From the NCBI GenBank assembly GCA_030611265.1, contig JAUWQD010000010.1, positions 1-64,000 on the forward strand: DNA of 64,000 nt, given 5' to 3'. The translations under genes were made by a program, and so were the position numbers. This DNA comes from Methanosarcinaceae archaeon. GTDB lineage: Archaea; Halobacteriota; Methanosarcinia; Methanosarcinales; Methanosarcinaceae. The notes below the pieces were generated by a model, which saw nothing but the letters and a program-made list of their open reading frames with translations, had not been told where the DNA came from and did not search any database. How positions within the stretch are numbered: the first letter of the stretch is position 1; each line of letters opens with the position of its first letter. Below, one piece after another: positions 30,602 to 62,189 of the stretch.

Positions 30602-33600
30602 ATGAAAAGAACAGATGAATTATTGAAGTTAGATATATGTTGCATCACACAAATATACGCGAAATATTTTCTAATTATGGTTGTGCTTGTATCTGTGTTA
30701 TTATTTGCGACACCGGTATCTGCAATTACTGTTGATGGAATCAAGTCAGCAGATGAGTGGAACGATAGTTGGGCATATGGCCAGACTCAGGGCACTGGTT
30801 ATGATGCAAACGGTCCCTTTGGGGACCGATTAGTCATAAGGCAAGGTGGTTTTAGTATTGTGGGTTCCGATTGGAATGATCTCGACCCAAAGGATGATGC
30901 AGGAGCATCATTTGATACGTCAATGGCAAGAGCCGGTAGTTTCGACAGTGGTTCTGATATCAAGAGTGTATATATGCATTTTAACACATCGACCGGTATT
31001 TTGTATGGTCTGTGTGAAGTATATGGTATACCCGGGGATCTTGACGGGGATGGTAGTGTTTCGACAAATTCGACCTACGGAGACACTGGGGGGAATTCAG
31101 GTCCTGCCGGTGATGGTATTGGAAGATCTGAAACATGGAAGATCAGAGCATCACAGGATGGTGAATTTGTTGATATTAAGATCAGTAACAACGATTGGAC
31201 TGTTACCAGTGAAACAATGGCAATAGGTTATGATGATGTAGTTGCTAAATTCGCATCTATCAACAATGGTTGCTATGAAATTGAAATCCATAACATTACA
31301 AGCTTTTTTGATATAAGTTTGGATGCATCTCCTATAATGATCGAAGCACTGGCAGGAGCCAACGATGATGGAATTGGTGAAGATATGGCTACTGCATTTG
31401 TTCATGTCCCACTTTCAGCAACAATTGGTGACTATGTTTGGTCAGATACCAACAATGACGGTGTCCAAAATGGTAGTGAATCCGGAATTTCCGGAGTGTT
31501 GGTCGATCTTGTACTTGATGGTACAATAATTTCCACTAATACCACTGATGGTACCGGTCTTTACATGTTTGATAATCTTGTTGCCGATTGTTACGATGTC
31601 GTGATTAACAGTAGTAACTTTGAATCCGGTGGTGCTTTAGAAAGTCACATTGCAAGTCCTGCAAATATGGGTGGTGATGATGCAATTGACAGTGATGGAA
31701 TTGATAATTCATCCAGTGTTTGTGTAAATCCTGGTGATGTAAACCTTACAATCGACTTTGGATATGTTCCACTTCCGGCAACGATCGGTGATTATGTTTG
31801 GTCTGATACCAATAATAATGGTATTCAGGATGACGGAGATTCTGGAATTTTTGGAGTGTTGGTCGACCTTGTACTTGATAGTACAATAATCTCAACTAAT
31901 ACCACAGATGGTACCGGTCTTTATCTGTTTGATAACCTTGTTGCCGATTGTTACGATGTTGTGATCAACAGCAGTAACTTTGAATCCGGTGGTGCTTTGA
32001 AAGGTCATATTGCAAGCCCTGCAAATATGGGTGGTGATGATACAATTGACAGTGATGGAATTGATAATTCATCCAGTGTCTGTGTCGATCATGGAGATGT
32101 AAATCTTACAATTGACTTTGGATACGTTCCACTTCCGGCAATGATCGGTGATTATGTCTGGTCAGATACCAATAATGACGGTATCCAGAATGTAAGTGAA
32201 GTCGGTATTGATGGAGTTGTTGTAGATCTAATGAATGGTAGCATGTTAATCGCTACTGACACAACCAATTCAACCGGTTATTACCTGTTCGATAATCTTG
32301 TTGCTGATTGCTACGATGTTGTGATCAACAGCAGTAACTTCGAATTCGGTGGTGCTTTGAAAGGTCATATTGCAAGCCCTGCAAATATGGGTAGTGATGA
32401 TACAATTGACAGTGATGGAATTGATAATTCATCCATTGTTTGTGTCGATCCCGGTGATGTAAACCTTACAATTGACTTTGGATACGTTCCACTCCCGGCA
32501 ACGATCGGTGACTATGTCTGGTCAGATACCAATAATAACGGTACTCAGGATAGCGGTGAACTCGGTATTGAGGGGGTTGTTGTAGATCTAATGAATGGTA
32601 GTACAATAGTATCCACTAATACCACTGATGCTGATGGTCTTTACCTGTTCGATAACCTTGTTGCTGATTGTTACGATGTTGTGATCAACAGCAGCAACTT
32701 CGAATCCGGTGGTGCTTTGAAAGGTCATATTGCAAGTCCTGCCAATATAGGTACAGATGATACAATTGACAGTGATGGAATTGATAATTCATCCAGTGTT
32801 TGTGTCGATCCCGGTGATGTAAACTTTACAATCGACTTTGGATACGTTCCACTCCCTGCAACGATCGGTGATTATGTCTGGGAAGATACCAATAATAACG
32901 GTGTCCAGAATGTAAGTGAATTCGGTATTTTCGGAGTGTTGATCGATCTTGTACTTGATGGTACAATAATCTCCAATGACACTACTGATTGTAATGGTCT
33001 TTACTTGTTTGAAAACCTTGTTGCTGATTGTTACGATGTTGTGATCAACAGCAGTAACTTCGAATCTGGTGGTGTTTTGGAAGGTCGTATTGCAAGTATC
33101 GCAGATGCTGGTACAGATGATGCAAATGACAGTGATGGCATTAACAATGCATCTAGTGTCTGTGTCGATCCCGGCGATGTAAATCTCACAATTGACTTTG
33201 GATATTATGAACCTTGTATATCCGATAATGTAACTATTGGAGATTATGTATGGGCAGATATCAATCAGAATGGTATTCAGAATAATGACTGTGAACCCGG
33301 TATACCATGTGTTGTTGTAGATCTTGTGCAAGGTAATACAATAATAGCGACTACTTTGACTGACAAATGTGGTTTCTACATGTTTAATGTCACAGTTGGT
33401 TGTTACAGTGGTGTAGAATGCTATGATGTTGTAATCAATTCCAGCAATTTTGATTCTGGTGGTATCTTATTTGGTCACACTGCCAGTCCATATAATGTTG
33501 GAATTAATGATGAAATTGATAGTGACGGTATCAATAACATCGCCAGTCTTTGTGTTTTTGCAGGAGATGAAAATCCCACAATTGACTTTGGATACTATAA

Positions 33601-33664
33601 TTCTGGAGATTTTGATTATATATATGATTCAGATACGTGTCCCGATTGCAATGGGGATGGCTAG
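30602..33664 (+). CDS. Secreted protein with six SdrD-B-like repeats
   Basis: A 1020-residue exported protein. A signal-type helix lies at about 22-45. Residues about 45-270 (ITVDGIKSADEWNDSWAYGQ onward) form a domain shared with two other proteins here and resembling DGxxxxEW-type DOMON/CBM9 modules. Six SdrD-B-like (Cna-B-like) units of IGDYVWSDTNN...GVLVDLV...GLYLFDNL follow; the first five start exactly 360 bases apart (31421, 31781, 32141, 32501, 32861) and the sixth at 33233. Such modules make rigid stalks. The protein stops abruptly after SDTCPDCNGDG with no anchor, so it may be truncated. Its start region is duplicated before the next gene. Confidence 0.85.
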   Translation: MKRTDELLKLDICCITQIYAKYFLIMVVLVSVLLFATPVSAITVDGIKSADEWNDSWAYGQTQGTGYDANGPFGDRLVIRQGGFSIVGSDWNDLDPKDDAGASFDTSMARAGSFDSGSDIKSVYMHFNTSTGILYGLCEVYGIPGDLDGDGSVSTNSTYGDTGGNSGPAGDGIGRSETWKIRASQDGEFVDIKISNNDWTVTSETMAIGYDDVVAKFASINNGCYEIEIHNITSFFDISLDASPIMIEALAGANDDGIGEDMATAFVHVPLSATIGDYVWSDTNNDGVQNGSESGISGVLVDLVLDGTIISTNTTDGTGLYMFDNLVADCYDVVINSSNFESGGALESHIASPANMGGDDAIDSDGIDNSSSVCVNPGDVNLTIDFGYVPLPATIGDYVWSDTNNNGIQDDGDSGIFGVLVDLVLDSTIISTNTTDGTGLYLFDNLVADCYDVVINSSNFESGGALKGHIASPANMGGDDTIDSDGIDNSSSVCVDHGDVNLTIDFGYVPLPAMIGDYVWSDTNNDGIQNVSEVGIDGVVVDLMNGSMLIATDTTNSTGYYLFDNLVADCYDVVINSSNFEFGGALKGHIASPANMGSDDTIDSDGIDNSSIVCVDPGDVNLTIDFGYVPLPATIGDYVWSDTNNNGTQDSGELGIEGVVVDLMNGSTIVSTNTTDADGLYLFDNLVADCYDVVINSSNFESGGALKGHIASPANIGTDDTIDSDGIDNSSSVCVDPGDVNFTIDFGYVPLPATIGDYVWEDTNNNGVQNVSEFGIFGVLIDLVLDGTIISNDTTDCNGLYLFENLVADCYDVVINSSNFESGGVLEGRIASIADAGTDDANDSDGINNASSVCVDPGDVNLTIDFGYYEPCISDNVTIGDYVWADINQNGIQNNDCEPGIPCVVVDLVQGNTIIATTLTDKCGFYMFNVTVGCYSGVECYDVVINSSNFDSGGILFGHTASPYNVGINDEIDSDGINNIASLCVFAGDENPTIDFGYYNSGDFDYIYDSDTCPDCNGDG
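31421..33220 (+). repeat. Five tandem 360-bp coding repeats
   Basis: Units begin at 31421, 31781, 32141, 32501 and 32861, each 360 bases, with very high identity in the blocks coding DNLVADCYDVVINSSNFESGG and DSDGIDNSS. They code for the SdrD-B-like modules. Equal length and high DNA identity point to recent unequal crossing-over or gene conversion. Confidence 0.9.
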
Positions 33665-33690
33665 GATGAAATTTTCAGTGGGGAACTAAT

Positions 33691-35901
33691 ATGATCAGAA
33701 CAGATGAATTATTAAAGTTTGATATATGCGGAATGGCATCCAAATATACAATACATTTTTTAATTCTGGTTGTGCTTGGATCTATTTTATTATCTGCGAC
33801 ACCAGTATCTGCGATAACGGTTGATGGAATCAAGTCAGCAGATGAGTGGAACGAGAGTTGGGCATTTGGTCAGACTCAGGGCACTGATTATGATGCAAAC
33901 GGTCCCTTTGGAGACCGATTAGTCATAAGGCAAGGTGCTTTTACTCTTATTAATTCTACCTGGTATGATAATGACCCACAGGATGATGCAGGGGAATTGT
34001 TTGATACTTCAATGGCAACAGAGGGTGATAATGCAAGTGGTTCTGATATCAAGAGTCTGTATATGCATTTTAACGCATCGTCCGATATTTTGTATGGCCT
34101 GTGTGAAGTATATGGTATACCCGGGGATCTTGACGGAGATGGTAACATCTCGACAAATGCGTCAAACGGGGATGACATAGGGGATGTAGGTCCTGCCGGT
34201 ATAGGTCTTGCATCCGCTGAAATATGGAAGATCAGAGCATCACAGGATGGTGAATATGTTGATATTAAGGTCAGTAACAACAATTGGACTGTCACTAATG
34301 AATCAATAGCAATGTATTATGATGACGTAGTTGCTAAATTCTCATCTATAGAAAATGGTTGCTATGAAATTGAAATCCACAATATTACAAATTTTTTCGA
34401 TATAAGTTTGGGTGCATCCCCTATAATGATAGAAATATTGTCGGGGTCCAACGCTGATGGACTTGGTGAAGATACTGCTACTGCATTTGTTCGTATGCCA
34501 CTTCCAGCAATGATCGGTGATTATGTCTGGGCTGATCTCAATAAAGACGGTCTCCAGAATGATGGAAACACCGGTATTTCCGATGTTACAGTCGAACTGT
34601 ACAACTGTACTGATATCCTGATCGACACAACCACCACCAATGCAACCGGTTATTACAATTTCACAGTTCCTGCCGGTGACTACTACGTTAACTTCACACT
34701 TCCCTTTGGAATGGTTTTCAGTCCGATGGATACAGGTGTAAATGATGGTATTGACAGTGATGCCAATATCACAACTGGAAAGACCCTATGTACCACACTT
34801 TCTCCAGGCGAGACAAATCTTACCCTGGATGCCGGTATGTATGAACCTGAAGCAAAGATTGGTGATTATGTCTGGAATGATCTCAATAAAGACGGTCTCC
34901 AGAATGTAAGTGAATCTGGAATTCCTGGAGTTACAGTCGAATTGTACAACTGTACTGATGTCCTGATCGACACAACCACCACCAATGCAACCGGTTATTA
35001 CAATTTCACCGTCCCTGCCGGTGACTACTACGTTAATTTCACACTCCCATCCGGAATGGTTTTCAGTCCGATGGATGCAGGTGGGGATAGTGTTGACAGT
35101 GATGCTAATCTTACAACCGGAAAGAGCATATGTACCACGCTTACTCCAGGTGAGACAGATCTTACCTGGGATGCAGGTATGTATGAACCTGAAGCAATGA
35201 TCGGTGATTACGTCTGGGACGATACTAATAAAGACGGTATTCAGAATGTCAGTGAATCCGGTATTCCCGGTGTTATTGTAGACCTGATGCAAGGCAGTAT
35301 AATCATATCCACTAACACAACCAATGCCAGTGGTATCTATCTGTTTGATAACCTCGTTGCCGGTTGCTACAATGTCACTATCAACTCCAGCAACTTTGGT
35401 TCTGGTGGTGCTTTGGAATATTACACTTCCAGTCCTTTCAATGTCGGTGCAGATGACGCAATTGACAGTGATGGCATTAACAATGCATCTAGTGTCTGTG
35501 TTGCTGCAGGAGATGTAAATCTTACAATTGACTTTGGCTACCATAAACCTGTGGTCTATAATGCAAAGACAATTGGTTACTGGAAGAATCATCCGGATGA
35601 TTGGCCAACGGAATCTGTGACAATAGGTGGTGTACCTTACACTAAAGCAGAAGCCATTGACATACTGAAAGATGCAAAATCAAAAGATGCAACCGATATG
35701 CTTGCTGCACAACTTATTGCTGCACAACTTAATATAGATAAATTTGGGGCAGGAACGTCGGACATTTTGCAAATTATTTTAGATAGCAATGATTTTTTGA
35801 TTCAGCATCCGATAGGATCGAATCCACAAGGTGATGACAGGGATGATGCTCTAGATCTCAAAGATTTGCTCGATGAATACAATAACATGTGGGATACATG
35901 A
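33691..35901 (+). CDS. Secreted protein with three SdrD-B-like repeats
   Basis: A 736-residue paralogue of the previous protein. It shares the first 270 residues (signal helix and ITVDGIKSADEWNESW domain) and even the upstream leader (TCAGTGGGGAACTAATATGA). Three SdrD-B-like units start at 34510, 34855 and 35197; the third resembles the units of the neighbour, while the first two are a different subtype (VTVELYNCTDILIDTTTTNA). The C-terminal 115 residues (KTIGYWKNHPDDWPTESVTI onward) match a module common at the ends of secreted bacterial proteins. No anchor or sorting signal is seen. Probably an extracellular or S-layer-associated protein. Confidence 0.85.
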   Translation: MIRTDELLKFDICGMASKYTIHFLILVVLGSILLSATPVSAITVDGIKSADEWNESWAFGQTQGTDYDANGPFGDRLVIRQGAFTLINSTWYDNDPQDDAGELFDTSMATEGDNASGSDIKSLYMHFNASSDILYGLCEVYGIPGDLDGDGNISTNASNGDDIGDVGPAGIGLASAEIWKIRASQDGEYVDIKVSNNNWTVTNESIAMYYDDVVAKFSSIENGCYEIEIHNITNFFDISLGASPIMIEILSGSNADGLGEDTATAFVRMPLPAMIGDYVWADLNKDGLQNDGNTGISDVTVELYNCTDILIDTTTTNATGYYNFTVPAGDYYVNFTLPFGMVFSPMDTGVNDGIDSDANITTGKTLCTTLSPGETNLTLDAGMYEPEAKIGDYVWNDLNKDGLQNVSESGIPGVTVELYNCTDVLIDTTTTNATGYYNFTVPAGDYYVNFTLPSGMVFSPMDAGGDSVDSDANLTTGKSICTTLTPGETDLTWDAGMYEPEAMIGDYVWDDTNKDGIQNVSESGIPGVIVDLMQGSIIISTNTTNASGIYLFDNLVAGCYNVTINSSNFGSGGALEYYTSSPFNVGADDAIDSDGINNASSVCVAAGDVNLTIDFGYHKPVVYNAKTIGYWKNHPDDWPTESVTIGGVPYTKAEAIDILKDAKSKDATDMLAAQLIAAQLNIDKFGAGTSDILQIILDSNDFLIQHPIGSNPQGDDRDDALDLKDLLDEYNNMWDT

Positions 35902-52776: not shown

Positions 52777-53054
52777 GGGTGGTGTTTGGATATTTTTGGT
52801 GTTTATAGGGGGGTTATGTGATTTATGCTTTGGTTTGGGGGGTTGATTTGGGTGTTTTTGGGTGTAGTTTAAAGGCAGTATTTTTTAACTGCAACATTCT
52901 AAAAATCTGAGTGCATTTCTTTCAAGACATCTATTATCCATATTGGTGATGGAAAACTTCGGTTATGCATTGAATAGAACACTTTAAAAATGATTAACAA
53001 CAATATGATGATATTCTATGGTCAAAATGTATAATTTTTAAGAGTAGTGTGTTT
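52777..53054. other. Divergent intergenic region, G-rich then AT-rich
   Basis: The left part has a G/T-rich strand with several G runs (two runs of GGGGGG and several GGG between 52808 and 52863), just upstream of the U32 gene. The right part is AT-rich with a TATA-like ATGTATAATTTTTAAG before the SIR2-STAND gene. This is the left edge of the accessory island; no gene is seen. Confidence 0.4.
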
Positions 53055-56000
53055 ATGAGTGAAAATAATCTTTCTAGACTTGCAAGTTCGATTGCTAACC
53101 GTCAATGTGTTCTATTTGCTGGCGCTGGTTTAACTGCAGATAGTGGGGGAACTACATGGACAGGGTTAATTAATTACTTATTTGAAAAATTCAACTACTC
53201 TGGCCTACTTGATCCTGAAGAAGATGATAGTTTTGAAATTTTTCAAGATTTATATAGGATAAATGACCCCAAAACAGTCTATAAGGAAGTAGAAGACAAA
53301 TTAAAAAATGCAACAATTAGTTCTCATCGCTCAAAATTAACAGTTCTGCCCTGGTTTGCAACATTTACAACAAATTATGATTTAGCTTTTGAGAACTCAT
53401 TGCGAGACAATCAGAATTTTCAAATACAAATTGTTACAAGTGGTAAAGAATTCGCATTATCTGGTTTACCCAATGAACTTCTATGTATTAAATTGATGGG
53501 GAGTTTAGATAAACCCCATGGTCAAGAAGGTTCTATGGTTCTTACGAAAGCTGATTATACATTAGCAAAAGAAAATAGGCCAATAATATTTGATATGCTT
53601 GCTGCCTATGCATATAACCTTTCATTTTTGTTTGTTGGGTATTCATTTGAGGACAAAGTATTTACCGATATTATAGATAAATTGAATCAGATGCTGGGGG
53701 TTCCAAAAAACACATTTTATGCAGTTTTCAGAAATGAACCTACTGATAAAAAAAAATATTTGTTAAAACAGCAAGGTATAGAAATAATTGTATCGGATCT
53801 AGATGAGTTTACAGAAAATATATCTAAAGAGGTAGCAATTTACAACCCTGACGATTTTTCTCTTAAACGGATACCCATAGGTAATGATATTATACCAATC
53901 GATTCAACCAAAGTTGGAATATTTTTATCTCTTCATAATCCAGTTTTATTTGAAGATTTACAAAAAACAGTATCTCCAGATGATTTTTTCAAAGGCAGTT
54001 TAGTAAGTTTCAAACCATTTGGTCTCAATTGGCATTACCCTCGCATTGAAAAAAACAAGATAATTGATGAAATCTTGAAGAATAGCACAAGTAGTCCAAA
54101 GCCAAATATATTTGTTGTTGAGGGAAGTCCGGGTTCAGGAAGAACATTCTTGATAATGGATTCTATTTATGATTTAATCACAAAGCATAGGACACTTGCT
54201 TTGAAAATTACACCTAACACTTTCAACCCAATTCCTAGATTCGAAGATTTGGAAGATTTTATCGAAGAGATTGAACGTTCATCAAAAGAGATAAATGTTG
54301 AAAAACCAGAAAGAATTGTTTTTTGGGCAGAATTTGCACTAGATGATGAAACCATTTTTAAGTTTAATTCATTGTCATCTAATTGTACTTATCCAATGTA
54401 TTTAGTTTTTGAAACAAATAAAAATTACAATCAAGAATACGAATTTTCAGATGGTTTAGAAGAGATAAGAATAAATGTTGACATTGAATTGACAGAAATA
54501 CAAAAGAATGAACTCAAAGATTATTTGATTGAAGTTATCTCTAAACATCCATTTGGTGAACTTGGAACTGAAGAAGCATACGAAATTGTTGATGACGAAA
54601 AAACACTTCTTCCTATTATGTATAAAGCTATAGATCCTGCAAAACGCTCTATAGATAAAATAATTCAAGTTGAGTTTCAAAAAACATCTGATCCTTTGGT
54701 AAAAGAATGTATTTCAATTTGTGCGTATTCCACCAGTTTAGATATTGATGTACCTTTATCCGCTCTTCGTAAAGTGTTAGGCAAGAGATTCGGTAAAGTT
54801 ATAGAATATCATCAAATGGATGAGATTCTGAAAGAATCTTTTGTATTCCTGAGATTATCAGAAGATATTCGTAGTAATTACTACTTTTCAATATATCACT
54901 CTTTAATTGCAAAACAGTTAACCTATATGATTGGTTCAAGTAAAATAGATGAATATTTAATAGATATTGCAAAGACTATTGACATAAGAATTCCAGTTGA
55001 AGCTGAATTTGTTGGAAACCTTTTAATTAATAAGGGGGTGAAACTAAAAGGAGCTTTCATACCTTTCACACAATATGGGTTAGAAAAAGCATTACTGGAA
55101 CTTATAGAACGTCAACCTGCTAGACCTTTACTTCATCATTTAGCAAGATTTTATTCAAATATATCAAAATATGACGATCGAATTATGCCTTTGTTAAAGC
55201 AAGCTCTTGAAAAACCCGATCTTTCGTATATTTTAGAAGAAAGAAGAGAAAATATACTAACAACAATGGCAAGTATGATGTGGAATCAGAAAAAAGAGAT
55301 TTTATTGAGTAAACCAAGAAATTATTACGAAACACAAGAAATTATTGATTTACTTGTCCAAGCTCGCAAAAATGTTGAATTTAATCCACATACTTATGTT
55401 GTTCATTCTAGAATCCTGAAAGAGTTGGCATCTTCAAAAGATGACAACGATCGGATACCTCTAATAAATGAAGCTCTTGAATTACTAGCTGAAGGCTTAG
55501 ATCTCTGCAACATAAAAGATAGAGGTTGTGAAAAATTAAGGAATACTCAAATAGAATTATTCGCTGAAATCGACCCCGAAAAAGCAGAAAAAATTGCAGA
55601 GGAATTGTTGGAAACAAAAGGTGATGGGAATGGATATTACACACTTGCTAGAATTCAATATGATTTAAAACGAAATCCAACTAAAGCTAGTGTATATTTG
55701 GATAAAGCTTTGAATGCCGATAAATATTCATCAGGAGCAATTGAATTAAAAATAGATATCATAATTCAAGATAAATATCCTAACTATGATAATTTGTTGA
55801 AACTTGTGACCCTTCTGGCATCAGATATTAATTATATAGACACATGGAAATCTGCTTATAACAAAGCCATAGTATATGCAATAAATGGTAAATATGGGGA
55901 CAGTATTAAGTATTTCAGAATGTCTAATCAAAAAGTGCCGTGGAATATTCAAAAGACAGTAGAGATTTTCGTGATGGAAAATGGTCGTAGAAAAACTTTT

Positions 56001-56210
56001 ATTGGTAAGATTGGAAATGTTTTGACTGAAAAGGAGGGACGAATATACTCACATAGTTTTAATGGATGGTCTGCAGACATATTTTTTAATCCACTTCGTC
56101 AAGAGTTTAAGAACAAATTGAAGAAAGGATATTTCGTTAATTTTGAATTAGGTTTCTCTCCAAGAGGTCCAATAGCTTTTGATGTTAGACCTTTTTCTAA
56201 TAATGCTTAA
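53055..56210 (+). CDS. SIR2-STAND-like defence protein with TPR region and cold-shock-like tail
   Basis: About 1051 residues from ATG 53055 (numbering below from GTG 53049). SIR2_2 domain: VLFAGAGLTADSGGTTW (21-37), ATFTTNYDLAFE (104-115), CIKLMGSLDKPHG (146-158) and FLFVGYSFED (193-202). NTPase: VVEGSPGSGRTFLI with Arg365 in place of the Walker A lysine. A helical repeat region (about 680-960) looks TPR-like. The last 75 residues (IGKIGNVLTEKEGRIYSHSF, DIFFNPLRQEF, KKGYFVNFELGFSPRGPIAF) fit a cold-shock/OB fold. SIR2-STAND proteins (Avs5-like) defend against phage by NAD depletion; this role is inferred. AT-rich and monocistronic. Confidence 0.8.
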   Translation: MSENNLSRLASSIANRQCVLFAGAGLTADSGGTTWTGLINYLFEKFNYSGLLDPEEDDSFEIFQDLYRINDPKTVYKEVEDKLKNATISSHRSKLTVLPWFATFTTNYDLAFENSLRDNQNFQIQIVTSGKEFALSGLPNELLCIKLMGSLDKPHGQEGSMVLTKADYTLAKENRPIIFDMLAAYAYNLSFLFVGYSFEDKVFTDIIDKLNQMLGVPKNTFYAVFRNEPTDKKKYLLKQQGIEIIVSDLDEFTENISKEVAIYNPDDFSLKRIPIGNDIIPIDSTKVGIFLSLHNPVLFEDLQKTVSPDDFFKGSLVSFKPFGLNWHYPRIEKNKIIDEILKNSTSSPKPNIFVVEGSPGSGRTFLIMDSIYDLITKHRTLALKITPNTFNPIPRFEDLEDFIEEIERSSKEINVEKPERIVFWAEFALDDETIFKFNSLSSNCTYPMYLVFETNKNYNQEYEFSDGLEEIRINVDIELTEIQKNELKDYLIEVISKHPFGELGTEEAYEIVDDEKTLLPIMYKAIDPAKRSIDKIIQVEFQKTSDPLVKECISICAYSTSLDIDVPLSALRKVLGKRFGKVIEYHQMDEILKESFVFLRLSEDIRSNYYFSIYHSLIAKQLTYMIGSSKIDEYLIDIAKTIDIRIPVEAEFVGNLLINKGVKLKGAFIPFTQYGLEKALLELIERQPARPLLHHLARFYSNISKYDDRIMPLLKQALEKPDLSYILEERRENILTTMASMMWNQKKEILLSKPRNYYETQEIIDLLVQARKNVEFNPHTYVVHSRILKELASSKDDNDRIPLINEALELLAEGLDLCNIKDRGCEKLRNTQIELFAEIDPEKAEKIAEELLETKGDGNGYYTLARIQYDLKRNPTKASVYLDKALNADKYSSGAIELKIDIIIQDKYPNYDNLLKLVTLLASDINYIDTWKSAYNKAIVYAINGKYGDSIKYFRMSNQKVPWNIQKTVEIFVMENGRRKTFIGKIGNVLTEKEGRIYSHSFNGWSADIFFNPLRQEFKNKLKKGYFVNFELGFSPRGPIAFDVRPFSNNA

Positions 56211-56358
56211 TATTTATAAGAACACGATTTCAAAATCGTGTGCATCAAACAAGAAGGATATTAACACTGTAGAAACAAAACTTTTAAAAATTAGTGCAAA
56301 CCTAACAATTGAAATTTTGAGCACCCATTTTTTAGCGTTACTCACATTTAAAAAAACA

Positions 56359-56500
56359 CAAACGGAGAAGTTCGCTCGAAAACCTATCTCACCATCTCTC
56401 AAATCCAGCACTCTTTAACCTATCTTACCCACCCTCGCGCCTATTGTAATACTTATCATGCGCTGTTCGAGATTTCGAACTGGGCAGGACACCACATAAT
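56359..56500 (+). repeat. Island repeat, copy 1
   Basis: Extended copy: CAAACGGAGAAGTTC...CTCGAAAACCT, then the core AAATCCAGC (56401), ACCCTCGCGCCTATTGTAAT, ACTTATCATGCGCTGTTCG and GAACTGGGCAGGACACCACA to 56500. It lies between the convergent SIR2-STAND and HNH-like genes. Matching copies are at 57871, 59085 and 61977. Confidence 0.9.
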
Positions 56501-56508
56501 CTATAATG

Positions 56509-57009
56509 TTATTGATTAATTCTTTTATGCAAAACATCTCGGAATTCTTTTTCAAATTCTGGACTATAAACGGAAGAATCAGAATTTTCAAAACATTTCC
56601 CTAAAACTATGATGACATCTTTAAAAATCGTTGCTGGTATGTTTGACTTAATTTGATTAATAACATTAAGGCAAACTGCAAGATCTTCCCCTTTTACACC
56701 ATAGCCATATGATGGTTCAAGATGGTCAAATGTAAGATCAAAAGCATTCGATAAAGATGCATTATCGTATTTTGCTCCAGTTTCGATTTTACAGGGAATT
56801 CCTGTATAATAACAAAGGAAATGATGTTCACCATTTGGATTAATAAAAGAAGCTTCTTTTAATGCTTTTTTTACATTGGTAGTGTTAAAATTACTTTTTT
56901 TACCATTAATTTGAACGATTTGTTTACAAGTTGAGCAAAGAATATCCTCGCCAGAAGAATAAATCTCTCCTGATAATTTAGTTTTACAAATACCACAAAT
57001 ATTTCCCAT
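56509..57009 (-). CDS. Zinc-finger protein with HNH-like motif
   Basis: A 166-residue protein. Residues 5-29 form a zinc finger (CGICKTKLSGEIYSSGEDIL then CSTC). The middle DLTFDHLEPSYGYGVKGEDL, followed by AVCLNVINQIKSNIP, looks like the HNH/beta-beta-alpha-metal nuclease pattern (D-H-x-x-P then a conserved N). A nuclease role is inferred. Its stop lies 9 bases beyond repeat copy 1, and it is divergent from the PD-(D/E)XK gene next to it. AT-rich. Confidence 0.5.
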   Translation of the reverse strand: MGNICGICKTKLSGEIYSSGEDILCSTCKQIVQINGKKSNFNTTNVKKALKEASFINPNGEHHFLCYYTGIPCKIETGAKYDNASLSNAFDLTFDHLEPSYGYGVKGEDLAVCLNVINQIKSNIPATIFKDVIIVLGKCFENSDSSVYSPEFEKEFRDVLHKRINQ

Positions 57010-57099
57010 TATTGAAAGCCTCTTTAATTTATATCGATCTCATTTACTACAATTGGTATAGTAAGTACATTTTTATATAAATAACATCTTTAATATCTT

Positions 57100-57603
57100 A
57101 TGAGTTTATTGGGCAAAATTGAAAGAATAATTGACGTTGTATTGGAAGATGGTTCTGTAGAAAAAGGGGATGATTTTGAAAAATACGTTGTAGATATGTT
57201 TGACAAACGCTATTTTTCAGTTGCGGAGTGGACATCAGATATTTCAAGGAAACATGATCGATTTGTTGAATCGGATACTAATCCGGATTTAGTAATGAGA
57301 TATGACTATAAAAATAAAAATGAACGATTTTGCATTGAGTGTAAATTCCGATCAAATTTGTATCAAAATAAACTTAATTGGTCAAAACCTGATCAGATAA
57401 AAAGATATAGAAATTATGCAAAAGAAAAGAAACTTCCTTTTTTTGTTGTAATCGGTTTAGGAGGAGATCCTCTATACCCAGAAAGGCTGTTCTGTATACC
57501 ACTTAAAGAAGCGAAATATCCTGCTCTCTATCCAAGTGTTTTTGAAAAATTCGAAAGAGATCCTAAAAAGAATTTCTTCTGGAAAGCTGGTGAATTGATT
57601 TAA
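57100..57603 (+). CDS. PD-(D/E)XK-like nuclease protein
   Basis: A 167-residue protein. GDDFEKYVVDMFDKRYFSVA, then NPDLVMRYDYKNKNERFCIE and CKFRS, give the restriction-endonuclease-like core E...PD...ExK (Asp in NPDL, Glu/Lys in IECK). The end (LFCIPLKEAKYPALYPS) is like other single-domain members of this type. No methylase is near, so it is not a classic restriction pair. It probably acts with the next small membrane protein and/or the divergent HNH-like gene in one defence cassette; this is inference. Confidence 0.65.
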   Translation: MSLLGKIERIIDVVLEDGSVEKGDDFEKYVVDMFDKRYFSVAEWTSDISRKHDRFVESDTNPDLVMRYDYKNKNERFCIECKFRSNLYQNKLNWSKPDQIKRYRNYAKEKKLPFFVVIGLGGDPLYPERLFCIPLKEAKYPALYPSVFEKFERDPKKNFFWKAGELI

Positions 57604-57635
57604 TTTATGTCATCTAAATATTGGAGATCGATAAA

Positions 57636-57869
57636 ATGGATGGAAAAAATGTTACACAATTAATTGTCAAAAGTTCTAAAATAAAATCGACACTTATGGT
57701 CGTTTTACTATGTGGTATATTAAATGTAGGTACCGATTTATCTGTTGGTTTAGTTCCTGTTTCAGGAGATGTTGCCAATTCATTTATTGATACGATACTT
57801 ACTATTCTTCAGGTAGGGTCAATTGCTTATTTAAAATCTAATGGAATTGAGTATATTCCGAATGACTAA
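57636..57869 (+). CDS. Small membrane protein of the repeat cassette
   Basis: 77 residues from ATG 57636 (ribosome site ttggagat). Two hydrophobic segments: STLMVVLLCGILNVGTDLSV and FIDTILTILQVGSIAYL. No family is recognised. It starts 33 bases after the PD-(D/E)XK gene, in the same direction, and stops next to repeat copy 2. A nuclease plus a small membrane protein recalls two-part defence systems, but this is only suggestive. Confidence 0.55.
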   Translation: MDGKNVTQLIVKSSKIKSTLMVVLLCGILNVGTDLSVGLVPVSGDVANSFIDTILTILQVGSIAYLKSNGIEYIPND

Positions 57870-57870
57870 G

Positions 57871-57968
57871 TCCAGCGCCTTTAACCTGTCTTTTGTCTAC
57901 CCTCGCGCCTATTGTAAAACTTATCATGCGCTGTTCGGGATTTTGAACTGGGCAGACAACATATGATT
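57871..57968 (+). repeat. Island repeat, copy 2
   Basis: Begins at the base after the small membrane protein stop codon: TCCAGCGCCTTTAACCTGTC, CCTCGCGCCTATTGTAAAAC, TTATCATGCGCTGTTCGGG, TTTTGAACTGGGCAGAC. It lacks the left extension seen in copies 1 and 3. Confidence 0.9.
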
Positions 57969-58100
57969 TAGTCTAACGTGCTTAAGCCATTTTTCTGCGA
58001 TAATTGGGTGACAGAAGTGAGGGAATTAATTAATAATTCTTTATTTTTCATTGATTGTAATAAACAAATATATTTATGCAGATAAATTGATTTGTATCAT

Positions 58101-59003
58101 ATGAAAATGTCTTCAAATATATTATCAAAAAAAATTAATATCTACCTTATAGGTAATATTTTCTTTATAGGTAAGAAACCTAACTTAAAAGTGCTCTTAT
58201 ATGCAGTAATACTTTCTTTTTTGCAACCAATATCTGAAATCATATTAGAAATTAAATATTTCTCTGATTTTAATTTTTCAGATGTATTTTTAAGTATTGG
58301 GGTGCTGCTGATATTATTTTGTCTTCAATCGGTTATTAAAAATTGGGATATGTTGTTACGTTTTACTCGTAAATATATAAAACTAAAACTAAATATTATT
58401 TTAATATTAGGAATTGAAATTTTAATCGGATATATGATATTTAATTTCATCGGACAATTTTTTATTTACGCCCTATTAGGATCATTTTTTTGGGTGACAA
58501 GTGGTTTTTTGAGAATAATTATACAAGCAACAAAAGCTTTGTTCTATGAAAATTCAAATGAATTAGCCAAGTTAATTCAATGTTATAGTTATTTGAGAAT
58601 AAGCTACTTTACTTTATTATTAATTCTTTTGTTTAATAAAATTCAATTAATTTCACATATGAAATCAATTTTAATTCAACTTGAAAATATGAATGATTAT
58701 TTAAATTTTTCAATTTATATTGCTTTTTGGTTTTGTTTAATATTTGTTTACTCACATTTCATGCTCAATTTATACCCCTATTTTACAAAAGATCCTGAAG
58801 TAGTAAAATCGATTAAAATTATACAATTTATTTCTCTTAAAGAAAAAGGCAGATCATTCAAAGAGATGATGGGTAATTTTAATGATTATTCAGAGTCTTT
58901 AATGCAAGATAAATTAAATCGGTTAATATATTCTGGTTTTGTTGAGAAAGATAGAAAGTATAAATTAGCACCACATCAAAAATATTATAAAAAAATGGGA
59001 TAG
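58101..59003 (+). CDS. Multi-pass membrane protein with C-terminal winged helix
   Basis: About 300 residues from ATG 58101. Five or six hydrophobic segments cover residues about 35-240 (YAVILSFLQPISEIILEI, FLSIGVLLILFCLQSV, NIILILGIEILIGYMIFNF, FFIYALLGSFFWVTSGFLRI, TLLLILLFNKIQL, IAFWFCLIFVYSHFML). The last 60 residues (IKIIQFISLKEKGRSFKEMM, SLMQDKLNRLIYSGFVEKDR) look like a winged helix. A membrane-bound DNA-binding regulator or sensor is the simplest reading. It is the only gene between repeat copies 2 and 3, with extreme AT bias. No family is recognised. Confidence 0.6.
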   Translation: MKMSSNILSKKINIYLIGNIFFIGKKPNLKVLLYAVILSFLQPISEIILEIKYFSDFNFSDVFLSIGVLLILFCLQSVIKNWDMLLRFTRKYIKLKLNIILILGIEILIGYMIFNFIGQFFIYALLGSFFWVTSGFLRIIIQATKALFYENSNELAKLIQCYSYLRISYFTLLLILLFNKIQLISHMKSILIQLENMNDYLNFSIYIAFWFCLIFVYSHFMLNLYPYFTKDPEVVKSIKIIQFISLKEKGRSFKEMMGNFNDYSESLMQDKLNRLIYSGFVEKDRKYKLAPHQKYYKKMG

Positions 59004-59084
59004 TTTTAAACTGAAAGATTATTCTAATAAGTCTTAACAAAACGTTACATTTATTGAAGATTATTATTACATTTAAATAAAGTG

Positions 59085-59212
59085 CAAACGGAGCAATTCA
59101 CCCCCTCGAAAACCTCCCTTCCAATCTCCCAAATCCAGCGCCCTTAACCCGTCTTGTCCACCCTCGCGCCTATTGTAAAACTTATCATGCGCTGTTCGGG
59201 ATCTTGAACTGA
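59085..59212 (+). repeat. Island repeat, copy 3
   Basis: Extended copy: CAAACGGAGCAATTC, CTCGAAAACCTCCC, then AAATCCAGCGCCCTTAACCC, CCTCGCGCCTATTGTAAAAC, TTATCATGCGCTGTTCGGG and ATCTTGAACTG. It shares the left extension with copy 1, but its right end diverges after GAACTG. Confidence 0.9.
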
Positions 59213-59300
59213 ACCTCGATGGTGGTCAGACAAAGCTACTACCAAGTTCACAGAAAAACAATAGAATTAAAATATAAACAGAACTATGGATTAAGTTAAC

Positions 59301-59651
59301 ATGATTGTAAAAGACGAATCAGATTCCAAGATCAAATCACTTCTTGATCTAACAAAACATCTCGGGCTTGACAAAAGTCAACTCGATTCATTTATAGGAA
59401 TCTGTGAAAGCAACAACATATCATTCCTTGGATTGTTTGGATCATATTCCAGAGGGGAGCAGAATAAAGATAGCGACATTGACCTGCTGGTAAATTTTTC
59501 CAAACGAAAGAGTCTGCTTGACCATATCAGAATTGAGCGAAATATCTCTGAAATTCTTGGTATGAAGGTCGATATGGTAACTGAGAAGTACCTGAGTCCT
59601 TATTTTGCGGATAAAGTTAAAAGTGAGGTAAAAACACTCTACCATGATTAA
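59301..59651 (+). CDS. mntA: MNT-type nucleotidyltransferase antitoxin
   Basis: A 116-residue minimal nucleotidyltransferase. The motif FGSYSRGEQNKDSDIDLLV gives GS (47-48), R51 and the two catalytic aspartates D59 and D61. In HepT/MntA systems this enzyme adds AMP to the HEPN toxin and silences it. Its end overlaps the hepT start by 8 bases. Residues 1-40 form a helical extension. It opens the gene set between repeat copies 3 and 4. Confidence 0.9.
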   Translation: MIVKDESDSKIKSLLDLTKHLGLDKSQLDSFIGICESNNISFLGLFGSYSRGEQNKDSDIDLLVNFSKRKSLLDHIRIERNISEILGMKVDMVTEKYLSPYFADKVKSEVKTLYHD

Positions 59652-59994
59652 TGATAGCGTATATTTACATCACATTTTTGATTCAACTTGCCAGATCGAA
59701 GAGTACATACAAGGAATGGATTATGAGGATTTTTATAGTGTAAAACTTGTTCAGGACGGAGTCATCAGGCAACTTGAGATCATCGGTGAAGCAACAAAGA
59801 AACTGTCCTCTGACCTGCGAGATAAGTATTCACACATACCATGGCAGGACATAGCAGGTATGAGGGACAAATTGATACATGTTTATTTTGGTGTGGATCT
59901 GGACGAGGTATGGGACACTGCCGAAAGAGATATTCCCGAATTGAAAGAAGAAATTGCCAGTATTTTGCGACATATCGAAGGCAATGTGGAATAG
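59644..59994 (+). CDS. hepT: HEPN toxin HepT (DUF86)
   Basis: A 116-residue HEPN ribonuclease. The RX4HXY active site is intact: Arg74, His79 and Tyr81 in GMRDKLIHVYFGVD. The helical frame VRQLEIIGEATKKLS-like segment and the end DIPELKEEIASILRHIE match DUF86. The toxin cleaves RNA unless AMPylated by the upstream MntA. The overlap with mntA ensures coupled translation. Both members look functional. Confidence 0.92.
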   Translation: MINDSVYLHHIFDSTCQIEEYIQGMDYEDFYSVKLVQDGVIRQLEIIGEATKKLSSDLRDKYSHIPWQDIAGMRDKLIHVYFGVDLDEVWDTAERDIPELKEEIASILRHIEGNVE

Positions 59995-60118
59995 ATGGCG
60001 ATGCCATAAACACGCCAAAGCCGCCACATAGGGGCCATAAAGGGGCCAAAAATTCGATGAACGAACCATTTCAATCAGAAATAGTGAATATAAATAAAAA
60101 ATAGCAGGGAGTCATGGA

Positions 60119-61303
60119 ATGAATAACAATAACAGTTTGGAAGGTTCGATAAACGATGATCAGCCTCAGAATGACGAACTATTTAATCGGGTGGCTTCTA
60201 TTCTTGATCAGGCACGGGCGAATGTTGTTAGGTCAATTGATAACCAGATGGTAATCGCTTACTGGCTGATCGGACGTGAAATCGTGGAATCGGCACAGGG
60301 TGGAGATGAACGGGCAAAGTATGGGAAAAAAGTGCTGGAGGGACTATCTGCCAGACTTTCCCAGAAGTATGGCGAAGGTTTTTCCGTGACAAACCTGCGT
60401 TATATTAGGTTGTTCTATCAGACATATTCTGAGCGTATGCCAGAAATTCATCACATGGCGTGTGATGAATCTGATCGATTGGATGGGATCTCACAAAATC
60501 ATCACACGACGTGTGATGTTTTAGAAGACATGAACCTTGCAGTTGAAAAAAACGAATGCAATCAGGGTTTTTCCCCGCTACTTAGCTGGTCGCATTACCG
60601 GACACTGACCAGAGTCGAAAATAAGAACGAACGTCTATTTTATGAGCTTGAAACAGAGAAAGAAGGTTGGAGTGTTTCACAACTGGATCGGCAGATCAAC
60701 ACATTTCTCTTCGCACGATTACTTAAAAGTAGAGATAAAATGGCCGTGATGAAACTGACGTGGGAAGGGTACAATCCAAAAAACCCGATAGACACGATAA
60801 AAGATCCGTATATTTTAGACTTCCTCGGTTTACCAGATTCCGATATTCTGCACGAATCAAAGCTCGAAAAAGCCATTATCAATAATATCCAGTCATTTCT
60901 TCTTGAACTTGGTAAAGGCTTTGCTTTTGTTGGACGACAAAAACGGCTACAATTCGATGGTGATTTATTTTATGTTGATCTGGTGTTCTACAACTGCATT
61001 TTAAAATGCTACCTGTTAATAGATCTAAAAATTGGTGAACTGACGCATCAGGATGTTGGTCAGATGGATAGCTATGTTCGGATATTTGATGATAGATACA
61101 TCACCTCCGACGATAATCCGACAATTGGATTAATCCTTTGTTCAAAGAAGAACGAGACCATTGCAAAATATTCGGTGCTCAATAACAGCAAGCAGCTTTT
61201 CGCTTCAAAATACATGCTCTATCTGCCAACAGAAGAGGAGCTCAAACATAAGATACAACACCAGCGCCAGCTGATCGAAGAGAGATTAAAAACAAATTTG
61301 TAA
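60119..61303 (+). CDS. DUF1016 (YhcG-type) PD-(D/E)XK nuclease
   Basis: A 394-residue protein. The N-terminal DUF1016_N domain reads ILDQARANVVRSIDNQMVIA, YWLIGREIVE, GEGFSVTNLRYIRLFYQTYS. The C-terminal nuclease domain has GKGFAFVGRQKRLQFDGDLF, YVDLVFYNCILKCYLLIDLK, with Asp and the DLK triad, then VGQMDSYVRIFD. Between them (about residues 110-150) is an unusual linker encoded by DNA with two palindromes (60449-60467, 60500-60518). YhcG-type proteins are common in defence islands and restriction loci. Its stop overlaps the next gene's start (TAATG). Confidence 0.9.
   Translation: MNNNNSLEGSINDDQPQNDELFNRVASILDQARANVVRSIDNQMVIAYWLIGREIVESAQGGDERAKYGKKVLEGLSARLSQKYGEGFSVTNLRYIRLFYQTYSERMPEIHHMACDESDRLDGISQNHHTTCDVLEDMNLAVEKNECNQGFSPLLSWSHYRTLTRVENKNERLFYELETEKEGWSVSQLDRQINTFLFARLLKSRDKMAVMKLTWEGYNPKNPIDTIKDPYILDFLGLPDSDILHESKLEKAIINNIQSFLLELGKGFAFVGRQKRLQFDGDLFYVDLVFYNCILKCYLLIDLKIGELTHQDVGQMDSYVRIFDDRYITSDDNPTIGLILCSKKNETIAKYSVLNNSKQLFASKYMLYLPTEEELKHKIQHQRQLIEERLKTNL
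60449..60518. repeat. Two palindromes inside the DUF1016 gene
   Basis: CATCACAT-ggc-GTGTGATG (60449-60467, one mismatch) and CATCACACG-a-CGTGTGATG (60500-60518, perfect) lie 51 bases apart inside the coding region. They code for a linker with His-His and Cys residues, and could be protein-binding sites. Confidence 0.6.
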
Positions 61304-61941
61304 TGACAGGCAGACCGGAAAGAGATCAAATATGGGATTACCCATTAGAAGCCCTGCGAGAAGCCCTCATCAATGCTGTTTGCCATCGGGACTATACAAT
61401 ATTCTCAAACATTGAAGTACGAATATATGACGACAAACTCATAATCAGAAGTCCGGGATTTTTACCTTATGGGATCACACTGGAAGAACTATACAAACCA
61501 CATTCATCAACACTGCGAAACAAAGGACTGGCAGAAGTACTGTATGATACTGAACTGATCGAAAGATGGGGCAGCGGCATAGAAAAAATACAACAACACT
61601 GCCTTGATGCTGGTCTTTCAGAGCCTACATTTGAGGAATATCAGGGCTTTCAGGTTGTGTTTAGAAAATATGTATATGATGAAGAATATCTTCGCAGCCT
61701 GAATCTAAATGAAAGACAGATCAAAGCTGTGATGTATGTCAAAGAAAAAGGGCAGATAACGAATACAGAATATCAGGAAATTTGCGCCACCTCTAAAAGA
61801 ACCGCTTCAAGAGATTTGTTAGATTTGGTATCTTCTGGTATTTTTGAGCAAATCGGCACCACTGGGGCTGGAACAGCTTACATTCTAAAGGGGCCATATA
61901 GGGCCAAACATTTCATAAACACATTACTAAGGCACTATTAA
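61303..61941 (+). CDS. Truncated AlbA-type ATP-binding regulator, C-terminal part
   Basis: A 212-residue protein that begins inside a known family: DYPLEALREALINAVCHRDY, IEVRIYDDKLIIRSPGFLPY and ERWGSGIEKIQQHCLDAGLS are the HATPase_c_4 region of AlbA_2/Schlafen-type transcriptional regulators, and LNERQIKAVMYVKEKGQITN with SKRTASRDLLDLVSSGIF is the C-terminal winged helix. The N-terminal AlbA_2 domain (about 200 residues) is missing. Its ATG overlaps the DUF1016 stop, so a recombination may have joined the two genes. It may still be made as a partner or be a remnant. Confidence 0.8.
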   Translation: MTGRPERDQIWDYPLEALREALINAVCHRDYTIFSNIEVRIYDDKLIIRSPGFLPYGITLEELYKPHSSTLRNKGLAEVLYDTELIERWGSGIEKIQQHCLDAGLSEPTFEEYQGFQVVFRKYVYDEEYLRSLNLNERQIKAVMYVKEKGQITNTEYQEICATSKRTASRDLLDLVSSGIFEQIGTTGAGTAYILKGPYRAKHFINTLLRHY

Positions 61942-61976
61942 AGGCGCCAAAACATAAACCCCCCCTTCCTATATCT

Positions 61977-62077
61977 CAAATCCAGCGCCCTTTAATCGAT
62001 CTTGTCTACCCTCGCGCCTATTGTAAAACTTATCATGCGCTGTTCGGGATTTCGAACTGGGCAGGGCACCACATAAT
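61977..62077 (+). repeat. Island repeat, copy 4
   Basis: CAAATCCAGCGCCCTTTAAT, TACCCTCGCGCCTATTGTAA, AACTTATCATGCGCTGTTCG, GGATTTCGAACTGGGCAGGG and CACCACATAAT. It shares the right end with copy 1 (CACCACATAAT). It lies 113 bases before argB and so marks the island/core boundary. Confidence 0.9.
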
Positions 62078-62189
62078 GAGCCCCACAGTGGATGTCTCGT
62101 AGAATTGAATAGCTTGCCAGTTTTGATTTAGATGTTTCACTGAGCATTGATCTTATACCAGTGCTTAATACAAAAGTTTAAACACTAAG

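Follow-up and report, generated by a model that had tools for sequence, protein, structure and literature searches.

An archaeal SIR2-STAND-TPR-OB protein with the core domain order of SAMD9 and altered residues in both presumed active sites

A stretch of 64,000 nucleotides from a Methanosarcinaceae archaeon (contig JAUWQD010000010.1; the window) carries a gene whose product joins a SIR2 domain, a STAND P-loop nucleoside triphosphatase (NTPase), TPR-like helical repeats and an OB/cold-shock-like tail in one chain (Table 1). The host is an archaeal methanogen, with McrA encoded in the same genome and HdrA2 and the archaeosine protein RaSEA in the window. The unusual aspect of the protein is the state of its two presumed active sites, not its domain architecture. 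Its coding part, 53055-56207 on the forward strand, runs for 1051 codons without stop or frameshift in the open reading frame (ORF) translation. Translation was taken to start at the ATG at 53055, and an alternative GTG at 53049 would add two amino acids. The preliminary description of this gene, made from the sequence alone, had named Met150 in KLMG, Arg365 in GSPGSGRT and Asn109 in TTNYD; the three residues were found as described, but each number is 2 too high from the ATG (Met148, Arg363 and Asn107), consistent with counting from the GTG.

Table 1. Features of the protein and of the surrounding variable stretch, in window coordinates
Feature	Position	Strand	Basis
Whole gene, SIR2-STAND-TPR-OB protein, 1051 amino acids plus stop	53055..56210	+	intact frame, predicted model
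SIR2_2 domain, residues ~4-252	53064..53810	+	Pfam PF13289 E=1e-21; ThsA sequence matches in PDB
Asn107 of TTNYD, kept in 25/25 relatives	53373..53375	+	family alignment
Met148 (KLMG) at catalytic His position	53496..53498	+	family alignment
STAND P-loop NTPase domain, residues ~305-500	53967..54554	+	weak PF25199; Foldseek SAMD9 and Avs5
Walker A, 357-GSPGSGRT-364	54123..54146	+	family alignment
Arg363 in Walker A, replaces Lys	54141-54143	+	Lys in 25/25 relatives, Arg in window protein alone
Glu426, Walker B acidic residue	54330..54332	+	relatives: Asp 20, Asn 3, Glu 2
TPR-like helical repeats, residues ~670-960, probable sensor	55062..55934	+	model; TPR matches weak here, significant in relatives
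C-terminal OB/cold-shock-like fold, residues ~970-1047	55962..56195	+	family alignment, model, tail profile
Variable stretch (9.2 kb) between U32-family peptidase and argB	52860..62109	.	congener homology stops at edges
Small CxxC zinc-ribbon protein, no family match, convergent with main gene	56509..57009	-	read from sequence
Possible PD-(D/E)XK nuclease (PDLV...ECKFR)	57100..57603	+	weak, E ~0.02; read from sequence
Hydrophobic, probably membrane protein, very AT-rich (GC 0.229)	58092..59003	+	composition, sequence
MntA/HepT-type toxin-antitoxin pair	59301..59994	+	Pfam HepT-like 4.3e-29, NTP_transf_2 1.8e-16
YhcG/DUF1016 nuclease, PADLOC candidate defence PDC-S02	60119..61303	+	E=1.8e-137

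The protein is a member of the SIR2_2 superfamily. In the Pfam scan, PF13289 matched residues 104-245 with 78 bits against a curated cut-off of 24.5, and the motifs GAG (G23-A24-G25) and TTNYD (residues 105-109) are read in the translation, so the SIR2_2 domain with both motifs was borne out; the catalytic His of the HG motif is missing. In the same scan nSTAND5 (PF25199) reached 21 bits, under its cut-off of 34, while nSTAND3 gave no match; among the members of the family alignment, nSTAND5 was matched in 29 out of 29 at E<=0.01. No AlbA_2/tRNase or other effector domain was found by Pfam, and SIR2 begins at residue 4.

Two relatives of about 1045 amino acids, from Vibrio and Klebsiella and aligned over SIR2 and the P-loop, were found by a tblastn search of plasmids, and using the Klebsiella protein as query brought in others from Acinetobacter, Psychrobacter, Methylobacterium and Hymenobacter. 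Scanning genomes with the window protein by itself found nothing, and an alignment of the family was needed; with it, a scan of 84,980 species genomes yielded 80 loci, 19 of which have further full-length proteins of 1030-1110 amino acids. The full-length relatives, just 15-20% identical to the window protein, come from Pseudomonadota, Bacteroidota, Planctomycetota, Ignavibacteriota, Acidobacteriota and Melainabacteria and from one Bathyarchaeote, the locus of the last being archaeal because aIF2-alpha, PAC2, RLI and topoisomerase VI genes lie on the same contig. By full-length alignment, domain order and tail, the window protein is a member of this prokaryotic SIR2-STAND(nSTAND5)-TPR-OB family; it falls short of the family only in an nSTAND5 match over the cut-off with a Walker A Lys, and the assignment is well supported. 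A second group of about 810 amino acids (e.g. loci L100, L118, L061 and L071) carries SIR2_2 and nSTAND5 without the tail and forms a separate, fully supported clade in the tree. A placement of the window protein as sister of the Bathyarchaeal protein (support 95/81) was not relied on, both branches being long. Among 186 genomes of the order, the window genome was the only one with a full-length match; where other genomes of the order and phylum gave matches, these fell on other proteins and covered SIR2 or TPR alone, and scans of IMG/VR returned no full-length tailed relative. Two genomes from another genus of the Methanosarcinaceae carry, at a locus common to both, fragments of about 60 codons (L163 9021-9200 and L164 8954-9136) with 59-62% identity to residues 37-97.

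All three tail motifs listed earlier as signs of a cold-shock or OB fold (DIFF, KKGYFVNFEL and PRGPIAFDV) were found in the window protein. In the hidden Markov model comparison that had been proposed, SIR2_2 exceeded its cut-off; Pfam CSD (the cold-shock domain) had no significant match in the window protein's own tail, yet was matched by 12 of the 19 family tails tested (best 6.6e-9). The family tail profile retrieved cold-shock domains from the PDB (Unr/CSDE1 3.6e-9, CspA 1.2e-6), and the predicted model has five strands with a short helix ahead of the fourth; the cold-shock/OB tail is thus upheld by model, profile and family matches, but not by the tail's own CSD score. The cold-shock RNP1 aromatics (GFGFI-like) are gone in the window protein, which reads KEGRIYS, so it is the fold and the family that resemble cold-shock proteins and not the motif for RNA binding. 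A role of the tail as RNA or DNA sensor is a guess. Since the same C-terminal domain occurs in 25 of 25 other full-length relatives, the tail is a family trait and no novelty of the window protein. Furthermore, SIR2-NTPase-TPR-OB is the core published for the SAMD9 family, given as AlbA-SIR2-NTPase-TPR-OB in animals and bacteria by Mekhedov et al. 2017 (PMC5445408). The suggestion of a new architecture was therefore abandoned.

The model, built from 29 family sequences, had a mean predicted local distance difference test (pLDDT) of 72 and a predicted template modelling score (pTM) of 0.58; a single-sequence AlphaFold model was discarded at pLDDT 37. Structure prediction, named earlier as a check, returned both SIR2 and OB folds, with human SAMD9 as best PDB match and Avs5 next. 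In Foldseek the best matches were six SAMD9 structures (E 2.8e-21 to 2.1e-19), followed by EfAvs5 9jap (8.9e-17), the AVAST5 filament 9nc9, DSR2 and ThsA. The top match, human SAMD9 9zjr (E=2.8e-21), extends over almost the whole chain (1261 alignment columns) with a low global template modelling (TM) score of 0.42 and a large root-mean-square deviation, so that domain order and folds agree, not the exact arrangement. By sequence, the family profile matched EfAvs5 over the NTPase and the following region (1.1e-35); the window protein's tail alone gave E=0.93 against SAMD9 37ib. The SAMD9 and Avs5 comparisons rest on these PDB profile and fold searches.

The HG motif reads K146-L147-M148-G149 in the window protein. 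Among the 25 relatives this position is H in 21, N in two, C in one and M in one, the sole other Met being that of the Bathyarchaeal protein, in which Walker A is intact; in the fetched loci His was found in 83 of 88 SIR2 proteins scored, and Met only in the Bathyarchaeal one. The NAD (nicotinamide adenine dinucleotide) site residues N107, D109 and D200 are retained in the window protein and in all 25. The sensor Arg455, an Arg in 24 of 25 relatives, is Asn in the window protein. A loss of Walker B was considered and dropped, since Glu426 occupies the acidic position, and PaAvs5 also carries Glu there (PMC12931631). Immunity by Avs5 requires SIR2 Asn110, Walker A and Walker B; PaAvs5 has Asn at the HG position, and its protection is abolished by N153A, by N153Q and by the Walker A change K363A (PMC12931631). 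These residues suggest a SIR2 site that is probably weaker or changed, and an NTPase that probably binds nucleotide without efficient hydrolysis. Full NADase activity is doubtful given both changes, and NAD hydrolysis by the SIR2 domain is uncertain.

Among the closest known systems, SAMD9/SAMD9L shares the domain order (SIR2, P-loop NTPase, TPR, OB), and the Walker A Lys is lost in both, to Gly (GGT/S) in the SAMD9 family (PMC5445408) and to Arg (GRT) here. The window protein differs in being archaeal, in a SIR2 that retains GAG and TTNYD, and in having no AlbA_2/tRNase, SAM, DEATH-type or kinase domain. Avs5 (AVAST type 5; 9jap, 9nc9) shares SIR2, STAND and a helical C-terminus (fold match E ~1e-16), an NTPase related by sequence at the family level, and, in the NG of PaAvs5, a precedent for variation at the HG position; a similarity to SAMD9 was also reported in the PaAvs5 study (PMC12931631). 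However, Avs5 has nSTAND3 in place of nSTAND5, an OB tail is not described for it, and the window protein has MG at HG and Arg for the Walker A Lys; an assignment to the Avs5 class was rejected on NTPase type and tail. The tail-less 810-residue proteins resemble the window protein in SIR2_2 and nSTAND5 but keep His and Lys. The SIR2 domains of ThsA and DSR2 are related in both sequence and fold, but these proteins also keep His and lack a STAND NTPase plus OB tail.

Homology to congeners ends at about 52,831-52,860, next to the U32-family peptidase, and picks up again at about 62,109-62,167 ahead of argB. The intervening 9.2 kilobases (kb), AT-rich and probably acquired, with many defence-type genes including the MntA/HepT pair and the YhcG nuclease, were not seen next to the same flanks in congeners. 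This break in gene order was not taken as proof of insertion, as the two flanks were seen adjacent to each other in no congener. The main gene and its nearest neighbours have a guanine-plus-cytosine content (GC) of about 0.31 and 0.21 at third codon positions, against about 0.46 and 0.47 for argB and 0.41-0.47 for the core. The plasmid-borne relatives first found mostly lie near recombinases, restriction-modification or toxin-antitoxin genes, and around the 19 further loci there are, among others, resolvases, integrases, type I and IIG restriction enzymes and ThsB. A defence-type setting is supported by gene context and comparative genomics, and a housekeeping role was set aside because the gene is patchily distributed and because of its composition and neighbours. 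The neighbourhoods of the bacterial relatives showed no partner gene common to them, which suggests a single-gene system; in the window, no same-strand partner directly adjoins the main gene.

With a probability of roughly 0.6, the gene encodes an archaeal member of the prokaryotic SIR2-STAND-TPR-OB family with the SAMD9 core architecture, related to Avs5 and probably acting against viruses as a STAND protein encoded by one gene. Computation gives the fold, the order of domains, the family, the changed residues and the context; the defence role, which rests on relatives and context, is inferred, as are trigger, assembly and chemistry, in the following form. Without infection the protein would stay closed; its C-terminal TPR helices, perhaps with the OB fold, would recognise some sign of infection, the NTPase with nucleotide bound would then allow subunits to assemble, and the clustered SIR2 domains would act on NAD or an NAD-derived molecule to stop cell growth or virus replication. 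Because the Walker A Lys is Arg, the switch would probably work by nucleotide binding, not hydrolysis, and because the usual His is Met, the SIR2 step would probably be slower or altered. Most likely, the gene was acquired horizontally and encodes an antiviral STAND protein of the SAMD9-core/Avs5 type that is switched by binding nucleotide. Several points weigh against this reading: the window protein sits on the longest branch of the tree (3.12 changes per column) and, of 39 columns that the other family members conserve, retains just 28, the smallest number among the 26 members; Met148 with Arg363 could mean lost activity, because PaAvs5 N153A, N153Q and K363A are dead; no close intact relative offers itself for a test of selection; and we know of no relative with the tail that has been tested. 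The preliminary observation (ORF, domains and motif changes) is confirmed, and its interpretation overall is partly supported.

An ordinary SIR2 NADase, tolerating Met148 and Arg363 and depleting NAD upon activation like Avs5 and DSR2, is a tenable though less probable account, in favour of which speak the retained NAD-site residues, the occurrence of N and C at the HG position, a PaAvs5 that functions with Asn, and a Met common to the Bathyarchaeal relative; Met is nevertheless rare and unable to serve as a base, and neither Ala nor Gln suffices in PaAvs5. It is unlikely, given that no effector domain in the chain and no adjoining partner could stand in for SIR2, that the protein is a catalytically dead but useful scaffold or regulator binding nucleotide and NAD or an NAD-derived ligand in the manner of SAMD9, even though each site has a change at its key residue, the sensor Arg is changed too, and the protein keeps its fold, OB tail and length, and even though SAMD9 itself lacks the Walker A Lys (PMC5445408) and relies on a different domain as its effector. 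In a similarly speculative version, an archaeal SAMD9-core branch would combine a His-less (MG) SIR2 that is no longer a simple NADase with a binding-only NTPase, both sites now being switches in parallel to animal SAMD9. A recently acquired foreign gene losing function would account for the long branch, the lost conserved residues, the 60-codon fragments in another genus and the truncated look of the neighbour at 61303, but is quite improbable because the frame is intact, with codon-position bias retained (GC 0.42/0.31/0.21), and Met148 is common to a distant archaeal member.

The interest lies in human SAMD9, which is itself antiviral and of the STAND type and for whose SIR2 and OB parts, to our knowledge, no function has been settled. 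A protein from a methanogen that shares the SAMD9 core and lacks the animal-specific front could serve as a minimal version, and Met148 with Arg363 would be a natural test of the residues needed by the SIR2 and NTPase parts. Together with the Bathyarchaeal locus, it adds archaea to the animals and bacteria described in the portion of Mekhedov et al. 2017 (PMC5445408) used here, where some family members are said to have lost AlbA and SIR2.

Of the neighbouring genes, the convergent zinc-ribbon protein combines CxxC...CxxC with CYYTGIPC...TFDHLEP, reminiscent of an HNH nuclease, and the membrane protein has a weak CARF_TM match (E=0.0068) in its C-terminal part. The MntA match in NCBIfam (3.8e-15) lies slightly below its cut-off. 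At 61303-61941 (+), a HATPase_c_4/RecG-C-type protein starts inside the domain, as if its N-terminal part, usually AlbA_2 in such proteins, were missing. Far upstream, at 30602-35901 (+), two large proteins match Sdr adhesin models far under the cut-offs and are probably repeat-rich surface proteins.
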